Shown: positions 8,687 through 45,157 of the stretch, one piece after another | Layout: each line of letters opens with the position of its first letter | Numbering within the stretch: position 1 is the first letter of the stretch | NCBI GenBank assembly: GCA_945928865.1 | Contig: CAMENZ010000002.1 | Location: 1 to 64,000, forward strand | DNA length: 64,000 bases | Direction of reading: 5' to 3' | Source: an uncultured Clostridia bacterium | Lineage (GTDB): Bacteria; Bacillota; Clostridia; Peptostreptococcales; Anaerovoracaceae | Position numbers and translations under genes: made by a program | The notes under the pieces: model-generated | Seen by the model: only the letters and a program-made list of their open reading frames with translations | Told to the model about the DNA's origin: nothing | The model's database searches: none

Positions 8687-9202
8687 TTACTTATCTGTCT
8701 TTGGTGCAAGTACCATTGTAAGGCCTCTTCCCTCAGGAATAGGTTTCTTCTCTACTATGCAAGAATCAGCAAGACTCTCTGCGAAAGCTATCATAACATC
8801 TTTAGCTTTAGACGCATAGTCTCTTTCTCTTCCTCTAAGTCTTAGTGACACCTTTACCTTATCTCCACTCTTCAAGAATTTGCCGGCAGTTTTAGCCTTC
8901 ACCTGAATATCATGTTCCTCGATAAAAACTGAAAGTCTAACTTCTTTAATTTCAGTAGTCTTCTGTTTTTTCTTAGCTTCTTTTTCCCTTTTCTGCATTT
9001 CATAACGGTATTTACCGTAGTCTAAAATTTTACATACTGCAGGTTTTGCATTAGGCGAGATATTTACTAAATCCAGCTTTTTCTCATTTGCTAAATCCAT
9101 AGCTTCATCAATGGACATAACTCCTAGCATAGTGCCATCAGCATCAATGACTCTTACCTCTTTATCACGAATTTCTTCGTTAATTAGTGCTTCTTTACTA
9201 AT
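8687..9202 (-). CDS. infC: Translation initiation factor IF-3 (AUU start)
   Basis: IF-3 binds the 30S subunit, prevents 50S joining and rejects non-canonical start codons. The protein shows the two-domain layout: INEEIRDKEVRVIDADG at the start and the C-terminal RNA-binding domain from about residue 80 (KEVRLSVFIEEHDIQVKAKTA). About 171 residues. The start is instructive: AAGGAGG at 9211-9217 is followed after 8 nt by ATT at 9200-9202, giving (M)SKEALINEE. The upstream in-frame GTG (9209-9211) overlaps the Shine-Dalgarno and cannot serve. AUU initiation with IF-3 autocontrol is known for infC in other bacteria. First gene of its operon. Confidence 0.95.
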   Translation of the reverse strand: MSKEALINEEIRDKEVRVIDADGTMLGVMSIDEAMDLANEKKLDLVNISPNAKPAVCKILDYGKYRYEMQKREKEAKKKQKTTEIKEVRLSVFIEEHDIQVKAKTAGKFLKSGDKVKVSLRLRGRERDYASKAKDVMIAFAESLADSCIVEKKPIPEGRGLTMVLAPKTDK

Positions 9203-9220
9203 CTTGTACACCTCCTTAAG

Positions 9221-9342
9221 ATTAAAAAAAGGCGGATAAAATATCCGCCTTAATACACATAAACCGTGTAATTTTCAACATATCAACCTACACAAACGAC
9301 TGGGTCTGTTAGGTGAGAAGCGGATAACTTCTTCTTCGTTAC
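9221..9342 (-). promoter_or_regulatory. L20-type autoregulatory leader with attenuator (infC operon)
   Basis: A 5-prime leader of about 120 nt ends in an intrinsic terminator (arms GGCGGATA 9231-9238 and TATCCGCC 9242-9249, then seven T) placed just before the infC Shine-Dalgarno. An upstream TATCCGC (minus strand, 9320-9326) is exactly complementary to GCGGATA, the terminator arm transcribed second being its twin, so alternative pairing can build an antiterminator. This is the logic of the Firmicutes L20 leader, where L20 binding favours termination. Family assignment is by position and architecture; a covariance search was not possible. Confidence 0.85.
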
Positions 9343-32916: not shown

Positions 32917-34662
32917 TTACATTGCCTTAGTAGCAATTTCTTCAAGAAGCTTTTCAATAAATTCTTCCACAGTCATTTCTCCTAGCTCACCCGCTTTAGA
33001 AGATCTAACAGTAACAGTACCTGCCTCTTTTTCTTTCTCTCCTATTATACAGATATAGTTATCCCTAGCATTTCTAGCTTCTCTAAGTTTATAACCTATC
33101 TTTTCGTTTCTTACATCTAACTCAACCCTTAAACCCAGTGCATCTAATTTAGCCTTTATTTCTTCAGCATAAGGAGCGAATTTCTCAGTAACAGTTAAAA
33201 GCTTAACCTGTACCGGTGCCAACCATAATGGAAACTTACCTGCACAATGTTCAGTTAAAATACCGATGAATCTTTCAATTGAACCAAATATTACTCTATG
33301 AATCATAATCGGTCTATGTTTTTCTCCATCAGAGCCTACATAAGTTAAATCAAAACGCTGAGGCATCTGTAAATCCAACTGAATTGTTCCGCACTGCCAA
33401 GTTCTTCCTAAGGAATCTTGTAAGTGGAAATCTAGCTTAGGACCATAGAATGCACCATCACCTTCATTTATAACATAAGGCACATTCATAGCTTCAATAG
33501 CGGCCTTTAAAGCACCTTCTGCCATAGCCCATTCTTCATCAGTACCCATAGAGTCTTCAGGTCTAGTGGACAATTCTACATGGTATTCAAAGCCAAACAT
33601 TTTGTAAACATCATCACAAAGTCTTGCTACACCAACTATCTCTTCCTGTACCTGCTCAGGTAACATGAAAATATGTGCATCATCCTGTGTGAAAGTTCTT
33701 ACTCTCATAAGTCCATGTAATGCTCCTGAAAGCTCATGTCTATGTACCTGACCTAATTCTCCACATCTAATAGGAAAATCTCTATAGGACCACATTTTAC
33801 GCTTATAAACAAGCATGGAACCTGGACAGTTCATAGGCTTAATAGCATAATCCTCTTCATCAATCTTTGTAAAGTACATATTATCTTTATAGTGATCCCA
33901 GTGTCCTGAAGTCCTCCAAAGTTGTTCATTTAAAATTAATGGAGTCTTAATTTCTTCATAACCCTTTTTTCTATGAACTTCACGCCAAAAGGTTTCCAAA
34001 CCATTTCTGATTACCATTCCCTTTGGTAAAAAGAACGGGAATCCCGGACCTTCATCATTTATCATAAATAAGTCCATTTCCTTACCGATTTTACGATGGT
34101 CTCTTTTCTTAGCCTCTTCAATCTTAGCAATATATTCATCTAATTCTTCCTGAGTAGGGAAAGCTGTCGCATAAATTCTCTGAAGCATCTGTCTATCAGA
34201 GTCACCCCTCCAATAAGCTCCTGCTACTGACATAAGCTTAAATGCCTTAATTTTTCCGGTGCTTTCCATGTGAGGGCCGGCACAAAGGTCTACGAAATCC
34301 CCCTGCTTATAGAAGGATATAACTTCATCTTCCGGTAAATCTCTAATCAATTCAACCTTATAAGGTTCATTTTTTTCTTCCATAAATTTAATAGCTTCTT
34401 CTCTTGGAAGTTCAAATCTTTCCATAGGATAATTTGCTTGAGAAATCTTCTTCATTTCTTTCTGAATTTTAAGAAAATCCTCTTCTACAAATCTATGCTC
34501 GGATTCTACATCATAATAAAAACCATTATCTATTGACGGACCTATAGCCAATTTAGTATCCGGCCAAAGGTTCTTAATCGCCTGTGCCATTATATGTGAC
34601 GCTGTATGTCTATAGGCATGTCTTATATTTTCATCTTCCCAATTTAATTTTTCTTTTGCCAT
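32917..34662 (-). CDS. thrS: Threonyl-tRNA synthetase lacking the TGS domain
   Basis: 581 residues rather than the usual 630-645: it starts directly at the editing domain. Editing residues are present (HTASH near 16-20; CAGPH near 127-131). The class II catalytic core follows: motif 2 region RCGELGQVHRHELSGALHGLMRVRTFTQDD, motif 3 SIERFIGILTEH, zinc ligands (NCPGSM; DDAHIF; IMIHR), then the anticodon-binding domain. The missing part is the N-terminal TGS domain of about 60 residues. The ATG has a good GAGGAG and no upstream frame restores it. No T-box is seen. Confidence 0.94.
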   Translation of the reverse strand: MAKEKLNWEDENIRHAYRHTASHIMAQAIKNLWPDTKLAIGPSIDNGFYYDVESEHRFVEEDFLKIQKEMKKISQANYPMERFELPREEAIKFMEEKNEPYKVELIRDLPEDEVISFYKQGDFVDLCAGPHMESTGKIKAFKLMSVAGAYWRGDSDRQMLQRIYATAFPTQEELDEYIAKIEEAKKRDHRKIGKEMDLFMINDEGPGFPFFLPKGMVIRNGLETFWREVHRKKGYEEIKTPLILNEQLWRTSGHWDHYKDNMYFTKIDEEDYAIKPMNCPGSMLVYKRKMWSYRDFPIRCGELGQVHRHELSGALHGLMRVRTFTQDDAHIFMLPEQVQEEIVGVARLCDDVYKMFGFEYHVELSTRPEDSMGTDEEWAMAEGALKAAIEAMNVPYVINEGDGAFYGPKLDFHLQDSLGRTWQCGTIQLDLQMPQRFDLTYVGSDGEKHRPIMIHRVIFGSIERFIGILTEHCAGKFPLWLAPVQVKLLTVTEKFAPYAEEIKAKLDALGLRVELDVRNEKIGYKLREARNARDNYICIIGEKEKEAGTVTVRSSKAGELGEMTVEEFIEKLLEEIATKAM

Positions 34663-34743: not shown

Positions 34744-36180
34744 TTATTTTCCTCCTGGATTTTGTTCGCCGGCTCCAGTACCGTTATCGGTGCCAGGTGA
34801 AGGCGTTCCTCCCGTCTCCCCCGTTCCTGCACCATTATTAGGATCCGGCGTTTCCGGATTTACCGGAACATTAGGAGTTTCAGGTTCTGCCGGTGTATTC
34901 GGTTTTTCTACCTCACCATTTTCCTTAGGTGTATCTGTATTAGGTTTTTCTGTACCGCTCTTAGGTTCTTCCTTAGGATTTTCTACAGCAGGCTTAGTTT
35001 CAGTCGGTTTAGTAACTTGACTTGTACCTGCCTTTTCACCTGTAATAGTATTAGAAGCCCTTGCACTATCTAACCTGCTTATTATAGTATTTCCAATCTC
35101 ATTAACCGTCGCAGAAGGAGTATACTCTGTATTTCCAAATACTTCCTTGTGGAAATCTACAGTATTTTTAATCATATTAGCAGGGAATACATAAGATACC
35201 TTATTAAGTAAACCACAGGTCCAATTATATGGCCAACCACTGCCGGACTTTATGCTGTACTTAGGTAATTTTAACCCTAACGCCAAAATATCATTCATCT
35301 TTAGATTAGTTTTAACCTGAGGAATCATCATATCTACAATATCTTTTATTTCACCAAAGGACATTTTCTTAAGCTTGCCAAGAACCTTAGAAACTACTAT
35401 ACGCATTCTCTCTGTTCTCTTGAAATCATCTCCTACGCCCTTTCTTATTCTTCCATAAGAAACAGCCTGTACACCTTCCAACTTCTGCTTTCCGGCTTCT
35501 GTTACAAGTTTATACTTTTTCCTGCCTATATTTCTTGCAGTCTGCTTAGTATATTTATTTAGCTGCTGAATTTCTCCCTGCTGAATATCCACTTTAATTC
35601 CGCCAACAGCATCTACTACATCAGCCACAGCTTTAAAGTTAACTATTGCAAAATTTTCCAAATCTATATCCATAGCTTGATTTAATGACTTCATAGTCAT
35701 CTCAGGTCCACCATAAACACAGGCATGGGTAATTTTATCATAGGTAGTAGTATCCCCTAATTTCAAATAGGTATCTCTATAAATAGATGTAAGAGTTACA
35801 TCATTAGTTTCTGTATTTATACTTGCTACCATAATCATATCACTTCTGGTACCCTTAATATTATTCATATCACGGCTATCTACACCTAAAAGTAAAAGAT
35901 TTATGTAACCATCCACCGGTTGAATCGACAAGTCATAATTTTCCGGTATATCCTCATTCAAATCATTCATTTTATCTACGGCGGATTTAAAATATCCATA
36001 TACCATAGTTCCTACAATACCGCCTACAACAAGGCATATCATAAGTACCAAAATCGTAATCTTCTGCCAAGTCTTTAAGTTTTTAATCTTTGTTCCTAAT
36101 TTTTTAAATCCTTGAAACTTACTGCCCTTATTGCTAAAAATAGGTGCAGCCTTTTTTTCTCTTCTTCTGTCACTTCTCAT
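34744..36180 (-). CDS. LytR-CpsA-Psr (LCP) glycopolymer ligase
   Basis: 478-residue membrane-anchored enzyme that transfers undecaprenyl-linked wall polymers to peptidoglycan. A basic cytoplasmic segment (1-40), one membrane helix (about 41-62, ITILVLMICLVVGGIVGTMV), then the LCP domain: LLLGVDSRDMNNIKGTRSDMIMVASINTETN, TSIYRDTYL, ITHACVYGGPEMTMKSLN, and VSYGRIRKGVGDDFKRTERMR with the lipid-phosphate arginines. Residues about 385-478 are a low-complexity Pro/Thr/Glu/Asn/Gly tail likely to span the wall. Follows the TagH gene by 2 nt, tying it to this polymer locus. Confidence 0.92.
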   Translation of the reverse strand: MRSDRRREKKAAPIFSNKGSKFQGFKKLGTKIKNLKTWQKITILVLMICLVVGGIVGTMVYGYFKSAVDKMNDLNEDIPENYDLSIQPVDGYINLLLLGVDSRDMNNIKGTRSDMIMVASINTETNDVTLTSIYRDTYLKLGDTTTYDKITHACVYGGPEMTMKSLNQAMDIDLENFAIVNFKAVADVVDAVGGIKVDIQQGEIQQLNKYTKQTARNIGRKKYKLVTEAGKQKLEGVQAVSYGRIRKGVGDDFKRTERMRIVVSKVLGKLKKMSFGEIKDIVDMMIPQVKTNLKMNDILALGLKLPKYSIKSGSGWPYNWTCGLLNKVSYVFPANMIKNTVDFHKEVFGNTEYTPSATVNEIGNTIISRLDSARASNTITGEKAGTSQVTKPTETKPAVENPKEEPKSGTEKPNTDTPKENGEVEKPNTPAEPETPNVPVNPETPDPNNGAGTGETGGTPSPGTDNGTGAGEQNPGGK

Positions 36181-36182
36181 AA

Positions 36183-37070
36183 TTAAAATAACCCCTCATA
36201 ATTTTGACTATCATTTGTTCCATAATAACCGCCCATTCCATCATACTCTTCAGTAGAATTTCCTGCTCTCTCTTCCAACACCTGCTGATCAACTAGTGAC
36301 ACTTCGTCATCTTTTGTTTCAGTTTCCTGAATTTTCTTTTTATCTGAAATAGATTCCTTATAAAGTTCAATAGCCTTTTCTATATCTCCGTCAAAGATTA
36401 TTTTTCCATCCTGTAAAAAAATACCTCTCTCACAAAACTTTTTAGCAGTGCCTGATGTATGAGTTACAAAAAGGAAGGTAATATTATCCTTTTCCGTCAG
36501 CTTCCTAATCTTTTTAAGGCATTTCTTCTTAAAAGGTGCATCTCCCACACTTAAAACTTCATCGGCAATGATAACCTCCGGCTTAAGGCTTACATTTATA
36601 GCAAATCCAAGCTTCATTCTCATACCGTTTGTATAAGTTCTAACCGGCTGGTCTATATAATAACCCAGCTCTGCAAAATCTATAACCTCTTGCTCTATTT
36701 CTCTAATCTCATCATCTGTCATTCCATAAAGCTGACATCTAAACCAAATATTTTCCCTGCCGGTAAATTCCGAGTCAAATCCCACCTGTAATTCCTGAAT
36801 AGCCGAAAGTTTACCCCTAACTTTAATTTCCCCTTCCGTAGGATAACAAACTCCGGTAATCATCTTAAGAATCGTGGTCTTTCCAGCTCCATTCTTACCT
36901 ATAATCGCAACCCTTTCTCCCTTATTAATGGAAAAGGACACATTATCTACAGCCACTTTTTTTCTGCATTTAACATTGCGATTAAAAAGAAAAATTATTC
37001 TCTGACCTTCACCCCTAAAAAGTCTAAACCTTTTAGTTACATTTTTAAATTCAATTATTGGTTTTCCCAT
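36183..37070 (-). CDS. tagH: Wall-polymer exporter ATPase (TagH-like)
   Basis: 295-residue ABC ATPase of the teichoic acid / O-antigen exporter type. Walker A GKNGAGKTT, a divergent signature region TYTNGMRMKLGFAI, Walker B VIIADEVLSVGD; the ADEVLSVGD form is typical of this subfamily. The C-terminal 50 residues are acidic and not part of the core. The frame opens at a GTG at 37079, but AAGGTG lies 6 nt before the ATG at 37070. Pairs with the permease at 37160-37969. Confidence 0.9.
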   Translation of the reverse strand: MGKPIIEFKNVTKRFRLFRGEGQRIIFLFNRNVKCRKKVAVDNVSFSINKGERVAIIGKNGAGKTTILKMITGVCYPTEGEIKVRGKLSAIQELQVGFDSEFTGRENIWFRCQLYGMTDDEIREIEQEVIDFAELGYYIDQPVRTYTNGMRMKLGFAINVSLKPEVIIADEVLSVGDAPFKKKCLKKIRKLTEKDNITFLFVTHTSGTAKKFCERGIFLQDGKIIFDGDIEKAIELYKESISDKKKIQETETKDDEVSLVDQQVLEERAGNSTEEYDGMGGYYGTNDSQNYEGLF

Positions 37071-37159
37071 AATTTTCACCTTAATAATTTCACAAAATCT
37101 GCCTATCCGACCTATCTTGTATATCTTACTTTACATAAATTCACCAATTTATGCAAGCC

Positions 37160-37969
37160 CTAAAGCATATCCGGTATATCTTTTTTTAACTTTCCATAAG
37201 CTCTTAAAGCTAATATAAGCATTATGGTATACACAATCACAAAGTTTCTCAAGGCTCTAGGAGACTCCCAAATCCATACATGTTTAATAAATACATTTCT
37301 ATAACCTGTAGCTATAATAGTCACCGGATTAAACATCAATAATCTTCGTATCCATATTGTGTTTATGCCTTCAGCATTATAAATAATACCCGACATCCAA
37401 AATAAAGCCTGAGTCAAAGCTCTAACTAAATTCAAGAAGTCTCTGCTTACAGCTGATACCATACCTGAAAATATGCCCCAAGTTTGAAAAAACATAAACA
37501 TCATAAGAGTATAAATAGGCAGCTGTAATATATGCCATGTAGGCATATATCCAAAGGACATAAATATTAAAATCATAATAAGAATTAAGCCCAAATGAGT
37601 TGCCATATTAGATAAACTTATAATCGTAGGAATAGTAGAAACCGGATATTTAATTTTAGTAACTAAATACTTGTACTTTCTAATACAGCCGGCACCACCT
37701 GATACCATATCTCTCATATAGAACCAAGGTATCATACCTGTAATAAGCCAAAGAAAGAAAGGATACCCATCTATATCTCTTCCCTTTCTAAGTCCGAAGG
37801 TAAACCCAAACCAAAAGACAAATATAACTATGGCAGGTCTTATTATAGCCCATGCTATACCTAACACCGACCCTTTATACTGTTTGTCCAGGTCAGATTT
37901 TGCTAACTTAATAAGTTGGCGTCTATACTTTATATGTTCTTTTACAATTTCTTTGAAGGTTTTTAACAT
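37160..37969 (-). CDS. tagG: Wall-polymer exporter permease (TagG-like, ABC-2)
   Basis: 269-residue membrane protein with six hydrophobic segments. KSDLDKQYKGSVLGIAWAIIRPAIVIFVFWFGF is the usual N-terminus of polysaccharide ABC-2 permeases, and MIPWFYMRDMVSGGAGCIRKY.YLV matches the conserved loop. With the TagH-like ATPase it should flip the lipid-linked polymer outwards. Lies between tagH and the tandem ATP-grasp gene. Confidence 0.9.
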   Translation of the reverse strand: MLKTFKEIVKEHIKYRRQLIKLAKSDLDKQYKGSVLGIAWAIIRPAIVIFVFWFGFTFGLRKGRDIDGYPFFLWLITGMIPWFYMRDMVSGGAGCIRKYKYLVTKIKYPVSTIPTIISLSNMATHLGLILIMILIFMSFGYMPTWHILQLPIYTLMMFMFFQTWGIFSGMVSAVSRDFLNLVRALTQALFWMSGIIYNAEGINTIWIRRLLMFNPVTIIATGYRNVFIKHVWIWESPRALRNFVIVYTIMLILALRAYGKLKKDIPDML

Positions 37970-37992
37970 CTCTTCGAAATCTATCCTTTCAT

Positions 37993-40236
37993 CTATCTTT
38001 TAGGTAGATGCACTAAAGTTTTATTAGGTTTCACATCATAGCCAAAGGCTCTTTTCTTAGCCTCAAGCCTATCTAAAAGATATTCTCTTGTATGTTTTGT
38101 GTACTTTTCTACCGCAGGAAAATCAGGGAATCTGTTGATTTCCGGAAATTTAATACCCTCATTAGTAACCGCTAAGTCTACCCCAAACCATTCCAACTGC
38201 TTTATAGATTTTGTAACTGCCAAAACATCTTCTTTTACCTGCTGCCAATGTGGAAGATAGCCGTCAATCGGAACTCCCGTATCCGGATGAATAGGACAAT
38301 CTTCGATAGAGTTTTGCATAACAATCTTTGCATCATGGAAATGACCTGTTTCTACATCAATAGTAGCCGTCATTCCGCCAGCCCCTACATTATCCACAGC
38401 ACCTGTTTTCTTAGAACCGAATCTTATATAGGCATTGCCTATTTCAGGATTTTTTCCATCCTTCTTAAACACGATCATTCTAACTGTGTTTACAGCTCCA
38501 TCATATACAGCCTTAAGTTCATCACACATATTTATATATTCTGTAATTAAATACTGGTTCTTTACATCTTCCAATATTTTTAGAACATCTTCTTTAGTAA
38601 CATCCTCATAGTTTAATTGATATTTGCCATTTTCACAAGTGAACTTGTAGAAACCGTCTCCGTGAGAACCCTCATCAGGTTTAAGTGCTAAAACGCCCTT
38701 TTCTTCAACTAATCTAAATATCTCATCAAAAGTGTTTATATATCCATCCGGTAAATCCATCATAGAGATTACCTTATTATTTCCATTTTTGCATATAACA
38801 TGAAAGTAATATTCAGGGAAACAGTGATTATAGTCAGAACAAACATACTTAACTGTAATCTTATCTTCCATCCACTTTCTATACTTAGGATTTATATGTC
38901 TGAGCCATTTATATTCAAAATCAGAAATATATTCGTTATAGTTGCTTTCATTTATACCATACTGAACTAATCTGTAGGAAAGGAAACCATGCCTATATGC
39001 CCAAATTTTCTGCTTGAAAGTAGTATCCTTGCAAGTCCTAAAGTCTTTCCAAACATCTCCTAACCATCTAAGGCTTAAGTATGGTTTGAGTCCCTGAGGG
39101 AAAAACATCTTGGCAAATCTTGCTCTAATTTTAAGTCTTGCCTTTTCTGAACCTCTTCTTCTTCTAATCTTTATATCAGAATAAGCTTCTTTTTTCTGCT
39201 CAACCTTTCTCATTAAATAAGCTGAGGTTTCCTTACTGAAAGGCTTACATGTAGGATACTTAGGATGATTTAAAAGACGAGTAATTTTAAAGCCTTCTTC
39301 ATTTATAACTATCTGTGCCCCAAAGAATTCCAGCTGCGGCACAAATAAACAAATTTGCTTTAAAACTTTAATCATCTCATCCCAATAAGGAATGTTATTA
39401 TTTCTCCAAGTTCCATTTTTTATATCTAAAGGCTCAGTGCTTTCATCTTGAAGTATGTTATCAATTGCATCTTCTTCCTCTTCTAAACCTTCTTCTGTTT
39501 CATCTCTAAACGCAGCCATGCTTACGGTCTGATACTTACCAAAAGTAATAAATCCGTCACCAATTACAGGATTATCTCCAAATTCATTGAAAATTACTAA
39601 GTTTAGTACTCCGTTTTCTAAAGAATTATTAGGCACGATTTTTTCCTTAATTACCATTGCTGCCTTATACGCACAGAGTCTATCAACAATCTCCTTTTCT
39701 GTAATCTCTACATCATCAGCAAAATATGTTCCATCAACATATTTTAAAGTAGTTTCTGTAACCCCATTAGCCGGTTCCAGACTCACACAGCCCTTTTCTC
39801 TTATAAGTCTAAAAATATCTTCAAAGGTATCTCCTGCATTTTCGTCATATAAAGGGATTACCGTAGTCTCATCAAATCTTTTAGAAAGCTGAAAATATAT
39901 TCTAGGCATATTATCTCTAAAAGGTTTAAATATGGTATGTATAGTCACCTTATCTGTTATCCATTTTCTATAGGTTCCATTTAAAGGTCTGAGATAAGCA
40001 TAATCCTTAGCAGAAATATAGTCCTTATAATTTTCCTCTGTTATACCTAAGGCATCTACCTGCTCCGGCATAAATCCATGCTTAATAGCCCATTTGGTTT
40101 GTTCTCTTGTATATCCGAAATCTTTGGTTTTATGGCGATAAACTTTTCTAATCCAAGCTCTTGCCTCACTTCCTGTAAATCCCCTTGATGTAGGTTTAAG
40201 AGCCAAAGCATTTAAAACCAACTTTTTTAATCCCAT
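37993..40236 (-). CDS. Tandem sugar-transfer-associated ATP-grasp protein, first half degenerate
   Basis: 747 residues made of two homologous halves, each a helical lead-in (Y.EYIS...YRKW..DK pattern at 70-96 and 433-460) plus an ATP-grasp domain of the sugar-transfer-associated type. The second half looks active: KPDEGSHGDGFYKF (519-532), NTVR (583-586), and FPEIN with E699 and N701 for metal binding. The first half has lost these: EPANGVTETT (154-163) replaces the glycine loop and its lysine, NLVI replaces NTVR, and L321 replaces the glutamate. So it is a duplication with one probable pseudo-domain. Substrate unknown; family members occur in glycopolymer loci. Starts with a one-base overlap on the nucleotidyltransferase stop. 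Confidence 0.82.
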   Translation of the reverse strand: MGLKKLVLNALALKPTSRGFTGSEARAWIRKVYRHKTKDFGYTREQTKWAIKHGFMPEQVDALGITEENYKDYISAKDYAYLRPLNGTYRKWITDKVTIHTIFKPFRDNMPRIYFQLSKRFDETTVIPLYDENAGDTFEDIFRLIREKGCVSLEPANGVTETTLKYVDGTYFADDVEITEKEIVDRLCAYKAAMVIKEKIVPNNSLENGVLNLVIFNEFGDNPVIGDGFITFGKYQTVSMAAFRDETEEGLEEEEDAIDNILQDESTEPLDIKNGTWRNNNIPYWDEMIKVLKQICLFVPQLEFFGAQIVINEEGFKITRLLNHPKYPTCKPFSKETSAYLMRKVEQKKEAYSDIKIRRRRGSEKARLKIRARFAKMFFPQGLKPYLSLRWLGDVWKDFRTCKDTTFKQKIWAYRHGFLSYRLVQYGINESNYNEYISDFEYKWLRHINPKYRKWMEDKITVKYVCSDYNHCFPEYYFHVICKNGNNKVISMMDLPDGYINTFDEIFRLVEEKGVLALKPDEGSHGDGFYKFTCENGKYQLNYEDVTKEDVLKILEDVKNQYLITEYINMCDELKAVYDGAVNTVRMIVFKKDGKNPEIGNAYIRFGSKKTGAVDNVGAGGMTATIDVETGHFHDAKIVMQNSIEDCPIHPDTGVPIDGYLPHWQQVKEDVLAVTKSIKQLEWFGVDLAVTNEGIKFPEINRFPDFPAVEKYTKHTREYLLDRLEAKKRAFGYDVKPNKTLVHLPKR

Positions 40237-40826
40237 TATTTAGCCAACCTCCTGTTGTAGTCTTCCGGAGAATTAAAATCCTCTGTATCATCTTTTAATA
40301 AAACAAAATTTTCTCTAATCTTCTTTTCCATAAAAGGTAAACCCACTAAGGACTGGTATACTTGCCATCCTATGCATTTGGGGATTTTGCCCTCTAAAAA
40401 TAATTGTCTGACCCTATCCACATGATGCTTAAATAAAGCCCCATCTGCCACCTTGACAGCAACTATGGATTTTTCATTTCCAAAGAACAAAACACTATCT
40501 GTATTTTGACTTTGAATTTCCTTAATAGCCGCCTCTGAATAATAAGTGTCCCCATACAAAAAACACACTTCATCAGCTATAAGTTCTTCTGTAAATCTAT
40601 CAATTTCCAAATTATTGTTAAGTGGCTCATAACGAGTAGCCCCTGAAATTTCATACCTTTCATCATGAGAAGTTATAATAACCTGCCCTGTTTCATCCCC
40701 TTCATTTAAGAGACGAACGGTTCTCGCAATTAAAGTTTCATCCTTAATTTTGATGAAATGCTTCGGTATGTCCTGATAATTTTTCCAACGGGTACCTTTC
40801 CCATCAGCCATAATAATATACTTCAT
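40236..40826 (-). CDS. Sugar-phosphate nucleotidyltransferase-like protein
   Basis: 196-residue NTP-transferase (GT-A-like fold). The signature is MADGKGTRWKNYQDIPKHFI near the N-terminus, with the G-x-G-T-R...PK nucleotide and phosphate contacts; LYGDTYYS carries the metal-binding Asp. Short for a GlmU or RfbA type enzyme and closer in size to MobA-like or choline/polyol cytidylyltransferases. It probably activates the polymer precursor (sugar, polyol or amino-alcohol); which one cannot be read. Overlaps the tandem ATP-grasp gene and follows the other ATP-grasp gene by 13 nt. Confidence 0.75.
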   Translation of the reverse strand: MKYIIMADGKGTRWKNYQDIPKHFIKIKDETLIARTVRLLNEGDETGQVIITSHDERYEISGATRYEPLNNNLEIDRFTEELIADEVCFLYGDTYYSEAAIKEIQSQNTDSVLFFGNEKSIVAVKVADGALFKHHVDRVRQLFLEGKIPKCIGWQVYQSLVGLPFMEKKIRENFVLLKDDTEDFNSPEDYNRRLAK

Positions 40827-40839
40827 TTTCTATTATATC

Positions 40840-41901
40840 CTACTTTTTGATAACTCTGTGATATCTATAAAAATCACCTAATTCTTTTTTTCTTTGTCCA
40901 CCCCAAAGCTGAATAATATTAACTCCGGAAGAAGTATTAGCTTCAATAATACAATGACCTTCTTCTGTAACTAATATATCCCAAGCTATAAAATGCATAT
41001 AAGGAAGCTTCTCTGCTAATTTAAGCATTTCTTCCTTCATTTTATTCCAATTAGGAATTATCACACCTTCTATCGGTGCCCCTGAATCAGGATGCACCTT
41101 GTAAACATTTCGGTTATGCAAGCATCTTGCCTCGCTTAACTGACCTGTTTCTAAATCTATATTCGCTACCAGACCACCCCTGCTACCATTATCCACAGGA
41201 ATAGTATCCTTAGTACCTATTCTCTGAACCGCAAAAAACACTTTAATCTTTCCTGTTTCAGGTTCTTTTAAAGTAATAAATCTAATGGTATTTACGGTTT
41301 TATCATATATGGCATCTAAATATGAATGTTGCTTCATAGCTTCCGATAAAAACCAATCATCCGCTTTTCTTAAATAGTCTAAAAAATCAGCCTTTGATAT
41401 GGGTTTAAGGTCTATACAAGGCATATCTTTTTCATAGTCATAGGTCATAATCACAACCCCTGTACCCTTACCTTTTCCGTAAGGCTTGAAAAACATCTTT
41501 CCCTTTTCTTTTAAAAGTCTTAAACCATCTTCATATGTCATAGATACACTTTCAAAACTGGTTAAATGCCCTTTGTTTTTAATCATATAGCTTTCCGGAA
41601 CCCGTACATACTGTTTCAAAATCTCTGCTGAAGCGATTTTGTTATTACACACGAAGTCGAAGGGTTCATTTATATATCTGGATCTATACCAGTCAAATTC
41701 TGACAAATACTCCTTTCTATCATTATGATCAAAATCATAAAGCTTCCACTGGTCTGCTGTAAAGCCGCCTAAAATATTTGCTTTCAATTTAGTATAAAAA
41801 GAACACTTAAAATGATTCTTTGCGAAAACTATTCTTCTCCAATAAAGTAAAAACAATTTCAACTTTCTAATTGTCCATCTAACTATCTTAAAAAAATCCA
41901 T
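40840..41901 (-). CDS. Sugar-transfer-associated ATP-grasp protein
   Basis: 353 residues, one ATP-grasp domain related to the second half of the 747-residue protein. FFKPYGKGKGTGVVIM (about 140-155) is the ATP-binding glycine loop, followed by LSEAMKQHSYLDAIYDKTVNTIRFITL, the VDNGSRGGLVANID segment and the C-terminal metal motif IIEANTSSG. All key positions seem intact. ATP-grasp enzymes join a carboxylate to an amine, thiol or hydroxyl through an acyl phosphate; here the acceptor may be a wall-polymer unit, an inference from context. Confidence 0.82.
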   Translation of the reverse strand: MDFFKIVRWTIRKLKLFLLYWRRIVFAKNHFKCSFYTKLKANILGGFTADQWKLYDFDHNDRKEYLSEFDWYRSRYINEPFDFVCNNKIASAEILKQYVRVPESYMIKNKGHLTSFESVSMTYEDGLRLLKEKGKMFFKPYGKGKGTGVVIMTYDYEKDMPCIDLKPISKADFLDYLRKADDWFLSEAMKQHSYLDAIYDKTVNTIRFITLKEPETGKIKVFFAVQRIGTKDTIPVDNGSRGGLVANIDLETGQLSEARCLHNRNVYKVHPDSGAPIEGVIIPNWNKMKEEMLKLAEKLPYMHFIAWDILVTEEGHCIIEANTSSGVNIIQLWGGQRKKELGDFYRYHRVIKK

Positions 41902-41954
41902 TACATCTATCTCCCATAAGGCTAGTTCAAATAAATTTCAAAATCCGCCTAACC

Positions 41955-43106
41955 CTACATATTTTCTAAAATCAAATCAACTATTTTTTCTGTAGATTCA
42001 CCTAAATCTTCAGGCAAGTATTTTTCTCTGTACTCCTTAAGAGTTTCCGAATCATAACCACCTGATTTCAAATTCTCCACCAAAGCGCTCGCATCTCTAA
42101 AGGAAACCTTAGGCAATTCCTTCATTAAATCCAGATTCATACCATTTTTATCTATATATTCTTCATAATCATATAGAAAATAATAAGTCGGTACACTTAA
42201 TATTGCTCCTTCAATAGCTATGGCAGAATAATCCGTTACTAAATAATCAGCCACTGCTAAAATGTCCACCGCCTTAAATTCCTCACATTCATAAACACCT
42301 AAGGCTTTCATTTTTTCAGTAACTGTTAACTTCTGATTAGGATGGCTTTTAACAATCAATGCAAATTCGGGGTTTGCTTCATCCTTAAACAATTCTTCCA
42401 CTAAAGTTTCCCACTGAGCATTAACATTTGCCGTCATATTTTTTCTGAAAGTTGGAGCATATAAGATGATTTTTTTCCCCTCCAACTCCCTATAAGTTTC
42501 AAAAAACTTTTTCCTATTTTCAGACTCACTTTCCAATAAAAAATCTATTCTGGGAAGTCCAAAGTTTCTAAGTTTATTTTCTTCAACATCAAAAGATTGG
42601 CAATAATAAGGGTTCCAAGCCCTGCCTCCGGCGATTATGAAATCATAGCCCCTGTGCATATTCATCAGTTTAGCAATTTCCTTACCTCTACCTGATTCCT
42701 TACACAAGGTTTGATAGCCTGATTGTTTTATCTTCCCTAAAGCATGCCAAATCTGAATAACCTTTAGCCCCTTTTTATGTTTCAAAATCGAAACAGCCGG
42801 CCAATAGGCATCCAAAATCACTACCTTAGCTTTAACCATATAGTACATACTCTTTAAGGTGGCTAAAGTGAACTGGACCAATTTACCAAATCCTGATTTT
42901 TCACCTTCAAGTCTACAACATACTGAAAATATTTTTACCTGAGAATTTCTAGCTTTTAATTCTTCCTGTAACATGAAAAAGTCTAAAGAAATATCATTAG
43001 ACTGTCTACTTAAAAAAACTATCCTATCATCTCTTGGCAACAATTTCATAAATCCATATATTAAATTGAGGAAAAATTTCACTACTAAAATAGCTAATTT
43101 CGTCAT
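41955..43106 (-). CDS. CDP-glycerol:glycerophosphotransferase family (TagB/TagF-like)
   Basis: 383-residue peripheral enzyme that adds glycerol- or ribitol-phosphate type units to a lipid-linked acceptor. A hydrophobic amphipathic N-terminus precedes IQIWHALGKIKQSGYQ, NFGLPRIDFLL, ILYAPTFRKN, VKSHPN and YLVTDYSAIAIEGA, the GT-B-like motifs of this family (catalytic His in WHA and SHP). Only one such gene is present, with no second polymerase domain, so it may prime or build a simple polymer. About 120 nt after the SDR gene. Confidence 0.88.
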   Translation of the reverse strand: MTKLAILVVKFFLNLIYGFMKLLPRDDRIVFLSRQSNDISLDFFMLQEELKARNSQVKIFSVCCRLEGEKSGFGKLVQFTLATLKSMYYMVKAKVVILDAYWPAVSILKHKKGLKVIQIWHALGKIKQSGYQTLCKESGRGKEIAKLMNMHRGYDFIIAGGRAWNPYYCQSFDVEENKLRNFGLPRIDFLLESESENRKKFFETYRELEGKKIILYAPTFRKNMTANVNAQWETLVEELFKDEANPEFALIVKSHPNQKLTVTEKMKALGVYECEEFKAVDILAVADYLVTDYSAIAIEGAILSVPTYYFLYDYEEYIDKNGMNLDLMKELPKVSFRDASALVENLKSGGYDSETLKEYREKYLPEDLGESTEKIVDLILENM

Positions 43107-43228
43107 TTCTGCCTATGCCCCCACCTTAATTTCATCCTAATAGTTTATCACATTTATTATACTTTGTAAATCCTGAAGTGGTGGATTTTGAACAATTTTA
43201 TATTAATTATGCCCTGTTTTTATGTAAT

Positions 43229-44047
43229 TTAGGCATATAATTTCCTGAGTAAATAATTTGCAATTCTACAAGGCAAAAGCTTGACCAATACACAGACTGC
43301 TTTGTAAGAAAATCCTATAGCATATAAAGGCTTTACCCTGTTTTTCATGGCGATTTTGCAAATATATTTTCCTGCAACCTCCGGACTCATACCATTTATT
43401 TCGTCCTTTTCCATTTTATTTACACTATTAGAAATACGATTTCCATATTCTTCATCACCCTTAAAAGATTTTTCCCTAAGGGTTGTAAAATTTGTCTTAA
43501 TATCCCCCGGCATAATTGCAGTAGCTGTAATACCATAAGGATGAACTTCATTGGCAAGAGCTGCCGTATAAGTGTTGATGGCAGATTTTGAAACTGAATA
43601 ATAAGCCTGAAAAGGTATGGAACATATTGCTGCCACAGAACTTATATTTATAATTCTACCTTTATTAGCAGCTCTCATATATGGAAGAACTGCTCTGCAC
43701 ACATTGGTCATTCCAAAAAAATTTACATCTAATTGCTTCTTAGCTTCAGCCTCTTCTGTAAACTCTATAGCCCCCGAAATTCCAAAACCTGCGCAGTTAA
43801 CTAAAAGGTCTATCCTACCTTCCATATCAAAAACTTTCTTTACAGAATTTTCTACAACCTTGAAATCTGTTACATCAGTTTTAATTCTAGTGCCTAAAGC
43901 CTTAATTTCATCTCTTCTACTAAAATCATATACCTTGAAGCCGGATTTATATAGCTCCTTAACAACACAAGCACCTATGCCGGAGCTTCCACCGGTCACA
44001 ATAGCTACCTGTTGATTTAGAGGAATTTCATTCTTTTTATTTACCAT
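43229..44047 (-). CDS. Short-chain dehydrogenase/reductase
   Basis: 272-residue SDR: TGGSSGIG cofactor loop (residues 19-26), NCAG, active-site Ser in NISSVAA and YxxxK in YYSVSKSA. The basic position after the second strand (DFSRRDE) suggests NADP(H). A C-terminal extension of about 40 hydrophobic residues may touch the membrane. SDRs make polyol precursors such as ribitol phosphate in some polymer pathways, so it may supply the substrate of the transferase downstream; a lipid substrate is also possible. Confidence 0.85.
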   Translation of the reverse strand: MVNKKNEIPLNQQVAIVTGGSSGIGACVVKELYKSGFKVYDFSRRDEIKALGTRIKTDVTDFKVVENSVKKVFDMEGRIDLLVNCAGFGISGAIEFTEEAEAKKQLDVNFFGMTNVCRAVLPYMRAANKGRIINISSVAAICSIPFQAYYSVSKSAINTYTAALANEVHPYGITATAIMPGDIKTNFTTLREKSFKGDEEYGNRISNSVNKMEKDEINGMSPEVAGKYICKIAMKNRVKPLYAIGFSYKAVCVLVKLLPCRIANYLLRKLYA

Positions 44048-44129
44048 AACTTTAGTACCCTCTTTGCTTAAATTATCATATATTATATACCCTTTTTATA
44101 TTAACCATCAATAATAAAATATAGTTTAT

Positions 44130-44252
44130 TTATCTCCTGCGCTTAAAATCCCTATAGGATTTCCTTCCCAAAGGAGATTCTCCTTTATAAAAAAGATAAA
44201 ACCCTATGGTTATATTTAATATAACCATGCCATATACTATATACCTCTCCAT
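44130..44252 (-). CDS. 40-residue membrane peptide at the head of the polymer locus
   Basis: Small frame: MERYIVYGMVILNITIGFYL, then FYKGESPLGRK and a basic end FKRRR. One membrane helix (about residues 4-23) with a positively charged cytoplasmic tail. AAGGAAGG lies 12 nt before the ATG (44250-44252), and a consensus promoter (44295-44323) sits about 40 nt upstream. It is the first gene after that promoter, 82 nt before the SDR gene. No family recognised; it may be a small scaffold of the polymer machinery. Confidence 0.5.
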   Translation of the reverse strand: MERYIVYGMVILNITIGFYLFYKGESPLGRKSYRDFKRRR

Positions 44253-44294
44253 CTTATTTCGATCCTTCCTTGTTTTAATTATCTTTTATGGAAA

Positions 44295-44323
44295 ATTTTA
44301 CCATTTTAATCTTCCTATGTCAA
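44295..44323 (-). promoter_or_regulatory. Promoter of the wall-polymer locus
   Basis: Minus-strand TTGACA (44318-44323), 17-nt spacer, TAAAAT (44295-44300). Divergent from the riboswitch promoter about 50 bp away. Confidence 0.75.
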
Positions 44324-44398: not shown

Positions 44399-44438
44399 AA
44401 GTCTGTTAATGATATTAACATACAATTAAATCAAACTA

Positions 44439-44588
44439 CTATGTCTACTCGGAAGAGTAGCTAAGAGGGAAACAGGTTAAAGTCCTGTGCGGTCCCGCCA
44501 CTGTAAGTATGGAGCTGTTGCCGTTATCCACTGGGAAACTGGGAAGGAGGCTGACAGCGTTGAAATACAAGCCAGGAGACCTACATAG
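44439..44588 (+). ncRNA. Cobalamin (B12) riboswitch aptamer
   Basis: Closing stem CTATGT (44439-44444) / ACATAG (44583-44588). A hairpin CTACTC-GGAA-GAGTAG follows, then the conserved core: AGAGGGAAACAGGTTAAAGTC, the box GGTCCCGCCACTGTAAG (about 44481-44497), and GCCAGGAGACC near the 3-prime side. All are hallmarks of the cobalamin class. An intrinsic terminator follows at 44673-44700, so adenosylcobalamin or a relative should switch transcription off. The regulated gene is an SseB-domain protein. Confidence 0.95.
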
Positions 44589-44672
44589 ATAGAAATTTTG
44601 CAATTTGGCGAGGTATCGAATATGCTTAAATCAAAATTTTTTCCTTAATTTTTTGTGCAGTAAAAACGGGTG

Positions 44673-44700
44673 CTGTAGTCAATCTGACTACGGTTTTTTT
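44673..44700 (+). terminator. Expression-platform terminator of the cobalamin riboswitch
   Basis: Eight-bp stem CTGTAGTC-AATCT-GACTACGG (one G-U pair) followed by seven T, 28 nt before the sseB-like ATG. A further inverted repeat AAATTTTG (44592-44599) / CAAAATTT (44632-44639) lies between aptamer and terminator. Confidence 0.85.
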
Positions 44701-44728: not shown

Positions 44729-45157
44729 ATGAAAAAAATTTTATATGACAATGAAGTAATTGAAGCTGCAATTTCAGATTACAAAAATGACCCCTGCGAA
44801 GAAACTGTTCAGAGAGTAATGAGTGCTATAGGTTCTAGAATAATAGCAGATGGAAAATATCTAGTCCCTTTAGAAATTTTAAACAAAGAAGCTGCTAAAC
44901 AGGGAAACTGTAATCTTCCCCTTAGAACCATCAGTTTTTCCGGTGGAAAAAAGGCTATGCCTGTTTTTACCACTGAAGAAGAAATGAAAAAAGAAAATGT
45001 AACCTCTGCTGTACAGTTAAACATTAGAGAACATTTAAGGTTGGTAACAGAAATGGAAGAAATTACAGGAATAGTAATCAACCCTTTCGGCAATTATATG
45101 ATTTTACCTATAGGAATTTTGAAAATGATATTAACAGCTAATAAGATGATTTGTTAA
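44729..45157 (+). CDS. SseB-domain protein under cobalamin riboswitch control
   Basis: 142-residue protein whose second half matches the SseB N-terminal domain: DGKYLVPLEI, KKAMPVFTTEEEMKK, and TGIVINPFGNYMILPIGIL. SseB was named for enhanced serine sensitivity when overproduced; biochemical role unknown, and the domain also occurs in type VII secretion and immunity-like proteins. No signal peptide or membrane segment. GAGAGG lies 9 nt before the ATG. The riboswitch and terminator stand directly upstream with no other gene between, so it should be made only when B12 is scarce. The next gene, maf, has a 138-nt gap. Confidence 0.82.
   Translation: MKKILYDNEVIEAAISDYKNDPCEETVQRVMSAIGSRIIADGKYLVPLEILNKEAAKQGNCNLPLRTISFSGGKKAMPVFTTEEEMKKENVTSAVQLNIREHLRLVTEMEEITGIVINPFGNYMILPIGILKMILTANKMIC

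Follow-up and report, generated by a model that had tools for sequence, protein, structure and literature searches.

Seven genes on the minus strand at 34744-43106 of the window (the whole stretch of 64,000 nucleotides analysed here, from an uncultured Clostridia bacterium) would, we judge with somewhat better than even confidence, make, export and anchor a phosphate-linked secondary cell-wall polymer with amide bonds formed by two active ATP-grasp domains. Protein family, shared gene order, retained active-site residues and modeled fold gave good support to a locus for a wall polymer with enzymes of the amide (carboxylate-amine) ligase type. Key genes of ordinary teichoic acid synthesis were missing from the genome, so the chemistry of the polymer has probably not been described before. 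Gene content, conserved order, retention and loss of residues, and genome-wide absences are direct observations. In order of transcription, the region contained the following features:

43229-44047, minus strand: SDR, matching the expected Pfam family
43107-43228, minus strand: intergenic gap ahead of the conserved cluster, with a promoter-like site (43170-43142; consensus match only)
41955-43106, minus strand: TagB/TarL-like phosphoalditol transferase of the CDP-glycerol glycerophosphotransferase family (PF04464, E 1.8e-56)
40840-41901, minus strand: ATPg1, a single ATP-grasp protein (PF14397, E 2.9e-36)
40236-40826, minus strand: NTPt, a short IspD/NTP_transf_3-like nucleotidyltransferase (IspD, E 8.3e-6; NTP_transf_3, E 6.2e-4)
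37993-40236, minus strand: ATPg2, a double ATP-grasp protein (PF14397, E 3e-38)
37160-37969, minus strand: TagG-like ABC-2 export permease (PF01061, E 5.1e-13)
36183-37079, minus strand: TagH-like export ATPase (NCBIfam teichoic acid export ATPase, E 9.3e-62, below the equivalog cut-off)
34744-36180, minus strand: LCP (LytR-CpsA-Psr) ligase (PF03816, E 4.7e-35)
32917-34662, minus strand: thrS, after the LCP gene in transcription order

The intergenic spacing inside the seven-gene cluster was -1 to 80 bases, and 122 bases separated the SDR gene from the cluster. An earlier note on this DNA had placed LCP, TagGH-like exporter, TagB-like transferase, nucleotidyltransferase and SDR genes in one locus at 34744-44323. 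All of these genes were present on the minus strand, confirming the gene content; the upper limit, however, was not a gene. A promoter-like site ahead of the SDR gene starts at position 44323; it agreed with 11 of 12 consensus positions, and such matches were no more frequent in the region than in shuffled sequence. The SDR itself fell outside the conserved unit: the related loci that were fetched contained no homolog of it, and the 122-base gap with its promoter-like site lay between it and the cluster. It was therefore rejected as a member of the pathway.

On the plus strand, opposite to the cluster, a cobalamin riboswitch (106.6 bits) was found at 44424-44602 ahead of a 142-aa ORF (44729-45157), with a terminator-like hairpin between the two (44672-44694). 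A ribosomal protein L20 leader was present at 9218-9342 on the minus strand, ahead of an infC-like ORF (8687-9211).

When ATPg2 was used as the query against the genome_contigs collection (84,980 species genomes), nine loci were recovered in eight related MAGs, several of them from ruminant gut. The order TagB, ATPg1, NTPt, ATPg2, TagG, TagH, LCP, thrS was kept in these MAGs as far as the contigs extended, which is more than chance would produce; in one MAG the cluster was divided between two contigs. The seven cluster proteins shared roughly 50-86% identity with their counterparts, and the TagG-like permease was 65-68% identical across the related clusters. In a 391-genome sample of the class, the window genome shared clear orthologs of NTPt with just two others, the more distant G154 and G366, and in each the gene lay beside ATPg1 and a TagB-like gene. 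ATPg1 orthologs were restricted in the same way, showing that the core triad (TagB-like, ATP-grasp, nucleotidyltransferase) was retained at this distance. No relatives of NTPt were found among plasmids. The named relatives were all MAGs, where absences may partly be assembly gaps.

The double ATP-grasp protein was missing from G154, where TagG, TagH, a PGA_cap protein, two MurF-like proteins and a Ddl-like protein lay alongside the triad, followed by an LCP gene with thrS. In G366, a PGA_cap/ATP-grasp fusion stood ahead of the cluster. These amino-acid ligase types (MurF-like, Ddl-like, PGA_cap) beside the triad were counted in favor of an amide-bearing polymer. As to their architecture, the two large MurF-like proteins of G154 (locus L081, 1414-4371 and 11137-13887) flanked the cluster genes, and each carried a C-terminal BspA-type leucine-rich repeat. 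The fusion in G366 (locus L080, 3676-6906), directly upstream of the cluster, was a 1076-aa protein combining PGA_cap, a leucine-rich repeat and ATPgrasp_ST.

The tie between the ATP-grasp proteins and a polymer locus held for direct orthologs, which were inside the cluster at every locus seen. By contrast, it did not extend to the ATPgrasp_ST family at large, whose neighbors were mixed in 15 sampled loci outside the cluster, with sugar-polymer genes in only some. A third ATPgrasp_ST protein of the same genome (contig C8, locus L025, 9603-12703) was located beside GATase_3 and Mur-ligase-like proteins resembling GatD/MurT, and may belong to a peptidoglycan-modification context.

ATPg1 and ATPg2 both belonged to Pfam ATPgrasp_ST (PF14397), scoring 132.1 and 125.5 bits against a cut-off of 31.4; Pfam names this family 'Sugar-transfer associated ATP-grasp'. 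They share membership with the rest of the family, but differ in that one is a double protein with a degenerate domain and in their fixed clustering with NTPt, TagB and TagGH. In ATPg1, Lys139, Glu187, Arg207, Asp308, Glu320 and Asn322 were retained in 11 of 11 orthologs compared. Within ATPg2, the two halves aligned as homologs from end to end (hhalign E 3e-45). The Lys that binds nucleotide and the Asp, Glu and Asn that bind metal were retained in ATPg1 and in the C half of ATPg2; these two domains look active, with residue roles assigned by analogy or homology with ATP-grasp enzymes. In the N half of ATPg2, however, Lys, Glu and Asn were lost in every ortholog with readable positions. Identity to orthologs was 55-61% for this half versus 77-84% for the C half. 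The earlier count of three ATP-grasp domains in two proteins was correct, but three active domains were rejected, since the N half of ATPg2 looks dead. That it has been kept despite faster evolution suggests a non-catalytic role, probably structural or acceptor-binding.

No convincing solved relatives of the ATP-grasp proteins were found by sequence, and fold models were built on shallow alignments and were of moderate to low confidence. The nearest folds to the ATPg1 model (mean pLDDT 64) were RimK/ArgX at Z about 10; with Ddl, glutathione synthetase and cyanophycin synthetase included, the best matches had Z 9-10 and rmsd 4-5 over some 175-215 aligned residues, and the match list also contained carbamoyl phosphate synthetase and pyruvate carboxylase. 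The full-length ATPg2 model was of low confidence (pLDDT 57) and matched TTL-like ATP-grasp folds on its N half; with Z about 8, these matches were too weak and were rejected as a guide to function. The fold and residues of ATPg1 support, but do not prove, carboxylate-amine ligation. The amide chemistry of the cluster enzymes is a prediction from family, active-site residues and modeled fold.

ATP-grasp folds are also found in kinases and carboxylases, and some ATP-grasp enzymes are kinases. Instead of forming amides, the two cluster proteins might then act as kinases or phosphotransferases of another kind and supply NTPt with its phosphorylated substrate; the ATP-grasp genes directly flank the NTPt gene, and the cluster has no separate kinase. 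We regard this as quite unlikely, as the nearest structural neighbors were mostly carboxylate-amine ligases and the only NCBIfam match of the ATP-grasp proteins, a weak one of 36 bits, was to an alpha-L-glutamate ligase-like family.

Ligase activity could also serve a different product. Teichuronopeptide synthesis in alkaliphilic Bacillus involves TupA, and amino-acid ligase chemistry on a wall polymer, predicted here, would be common to both systems. In a polymer of that kind, the ATP-grasp enzymes would build a short poly-amino-acid side chain (e.g., glutamate) on a phosphate-linked glycan. RimK, the closest fold to ATPg1, is a poly-glutamate ligase, and PGA_cap (capsule, poly-glutamate type) and Mur-ligase-like genes occurred in or beside the cluster of the two distant relatives, both of which favor such a side chain. 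However, the cluster was phosphotransferase-based and had no uronic-acid genes, and a Pfam scan of its proteins to E 0.1 matched the ATP-grasp proteins to ATPgrasp_ST and not to TupA. Further, the sole PGA_cap gene of the window genome was unlinked, lying beside guaA and metK. A teichuronopeptide-like polymer is on balance unlikely, and amide bonds on or within a phosphate-linked polymer are the preferred reading.

Amidation of a surface polymer by an ATP-grasp enzyme is a known principle. In the Campylobacter jejuni capsule, the TupA-like C-terminal domain of Cj1438 amidates glucuronic acid (PMC11800379), and this ATP-grasp enzyme of a surface-polymer pathway places an amide on a polymer unit, as is predicted here (PMC11800379). 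Cj1438 differs in being TupA-like and fused to GT2, whereas the present cluster has ATPgrasp_ST proteins, a genome without GT2, and Gram-positive-type export and anchoring. A literature search combining ATP-grasp with wall glycopolymer or LCP yielded nothing beyond a review on lactic acid bacteria, in which the ATP-grasp enzyme is the peptidoglycan D-Asp ligase, and the name ATPgrasp_ST was not found in the open literature searched. The earlier proposal of a polymer with an amide- or ester-linked group was supported as to an amide-ligase-type locus (family, gene order, residues, fold), but the link between ATP-grasp enzymes and a surface polymer is not itself new. What is new is the gene combination and its genomic background.

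That background bears on whether the locus makes an ordinary wall teichoic acid with an extra tailoring step. The TagB-like transferase, TagG/TagH exporter and LCP attachment enzyme are the components shared with the tagBGH and LCP locus of Bacillus and Staphylococcus, and they favor this reading. LCP membership was clear (LytR_cpsA_psr, PF03816, 121 bits against a cut-off of 24.6), and the genome encoded two LCP proteins including this one. However, no cluster protein reached an NCBIfam teichoic-acid equivalog cut-off; the best match of the TagB-like protein was TarB at 129.5 bits, far below the cut-off of 500. The locus had been described as having no TagO, TagA, TarI or TarJ, and for TagA and TagD the absence extended to the whole genome (1.55 Mb assembly, 99% complete). 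TagA/WecG (PF03808) had no match there, while 7 of 14 control genomes were positive, Bacillus subtilis among them. The three CTP_transf_like proteins were of NadD, CoaD and RibF type, as assigned by length and score, and no TagD-like enzyme was found genome-wide. The cluster protein was the sole PF04464 (TagB/F-type) member, leaving no second transferase or polymerase. Glycosyltransferases of family 2, the family covered by the genome-wide search, were not detected, and all 14 control genomes had them. A TagO-type gene did exist elsewhere: MraY was present, as was an unlinked TagO/WecA-like Glycos_transf_4 protein (C4:75146; WecA-like, 140 bits, below the equivalog cut-off), which again would suit an ordinary teichoic acid. 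Compared with the Bacillus and Staphylococcus systems, this genome lacked TagA and TagD-like enzymes, had one TagB/F-type enzyme, and added two ATP-grasp proteins and a short nucleotidyltransferase. With TagA, a TagD-like enzyme, GT2 and a second TagB/F-type enzyme missing and the TagO/WecA-like gene unlinked, a canonical wall teichoic acid is unlikely. The earlier suggestion that the polymer is possibly undescribed agrees with the absence of TagA, a TagD-like enzyme and family-2 glycosyltransferases.

Synthesis of CDP-glycerol by TagD or of CDP-ribitol by TarI was likewise not found in the genome, and a donor of either kind made by known routes is unlikely for the TagB-like enzyme, judging from gene content. 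IspD matches numbered two, a full-length IspD and the short enzyme of the cluster. Because no TagD-like enzyme and no further IspD-like protein were found, the strongest candidate for donor synthesis is the nucleotidyltransferase of the cluster. Its IspD and NTP_transf_3 matches were both below the curated Pfam cut-offs, its motifs GxGTR..PKH and GD were conserved, and PDB sequence matches bearing on its substrate were weak (best E 0.004).

We infer the reactions, nucleotide, substrates and attachment site of the following pathway from these genes. The nucleotidyltransferase would activate a phosphorylated building block, probably to a CDP derivative, and the TagB-like enzyme would move the activated block, as a phosphodiester-linked unit, to a lipid-linked acceptor plausibly initiated by the unlinked TagO/WecA-like enzyme. 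A source for the acceptor or for the phosphorylated block was not found. Amide bonds on the unit, or inside it, would come from the two ATP-grasp domains that look active, which would couple a carboxylate to the amine of an amino acid or amino alcohol. TagGH would then export the polymer, and the LCP enzyme would link it to peptidoglycan. A bolder version, which we consider quite unlikely, is that the cluster alone builds a backbone alternating phosphodiester bonds (TagB-like enzyme) and amide bonds (two ATP-grasp ligases), a teichoic acid-peptide hybrid whose assembly would call for hardly any glycosyltransferases, or none; the lineage would have lost most of its other surface-polymer enzymes.

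The cluster provides a defined set for assigning substrates to ATPgrasp_ST enzymes. If the proposed pathway is true, uncultured gut bacteria would have a class of wall polymer in whose assembly amide ligases take part, and the gene signature (TagB-like, ATP-grasp and short nucleotidyltransferase) could be used for finding and testing such polymers.
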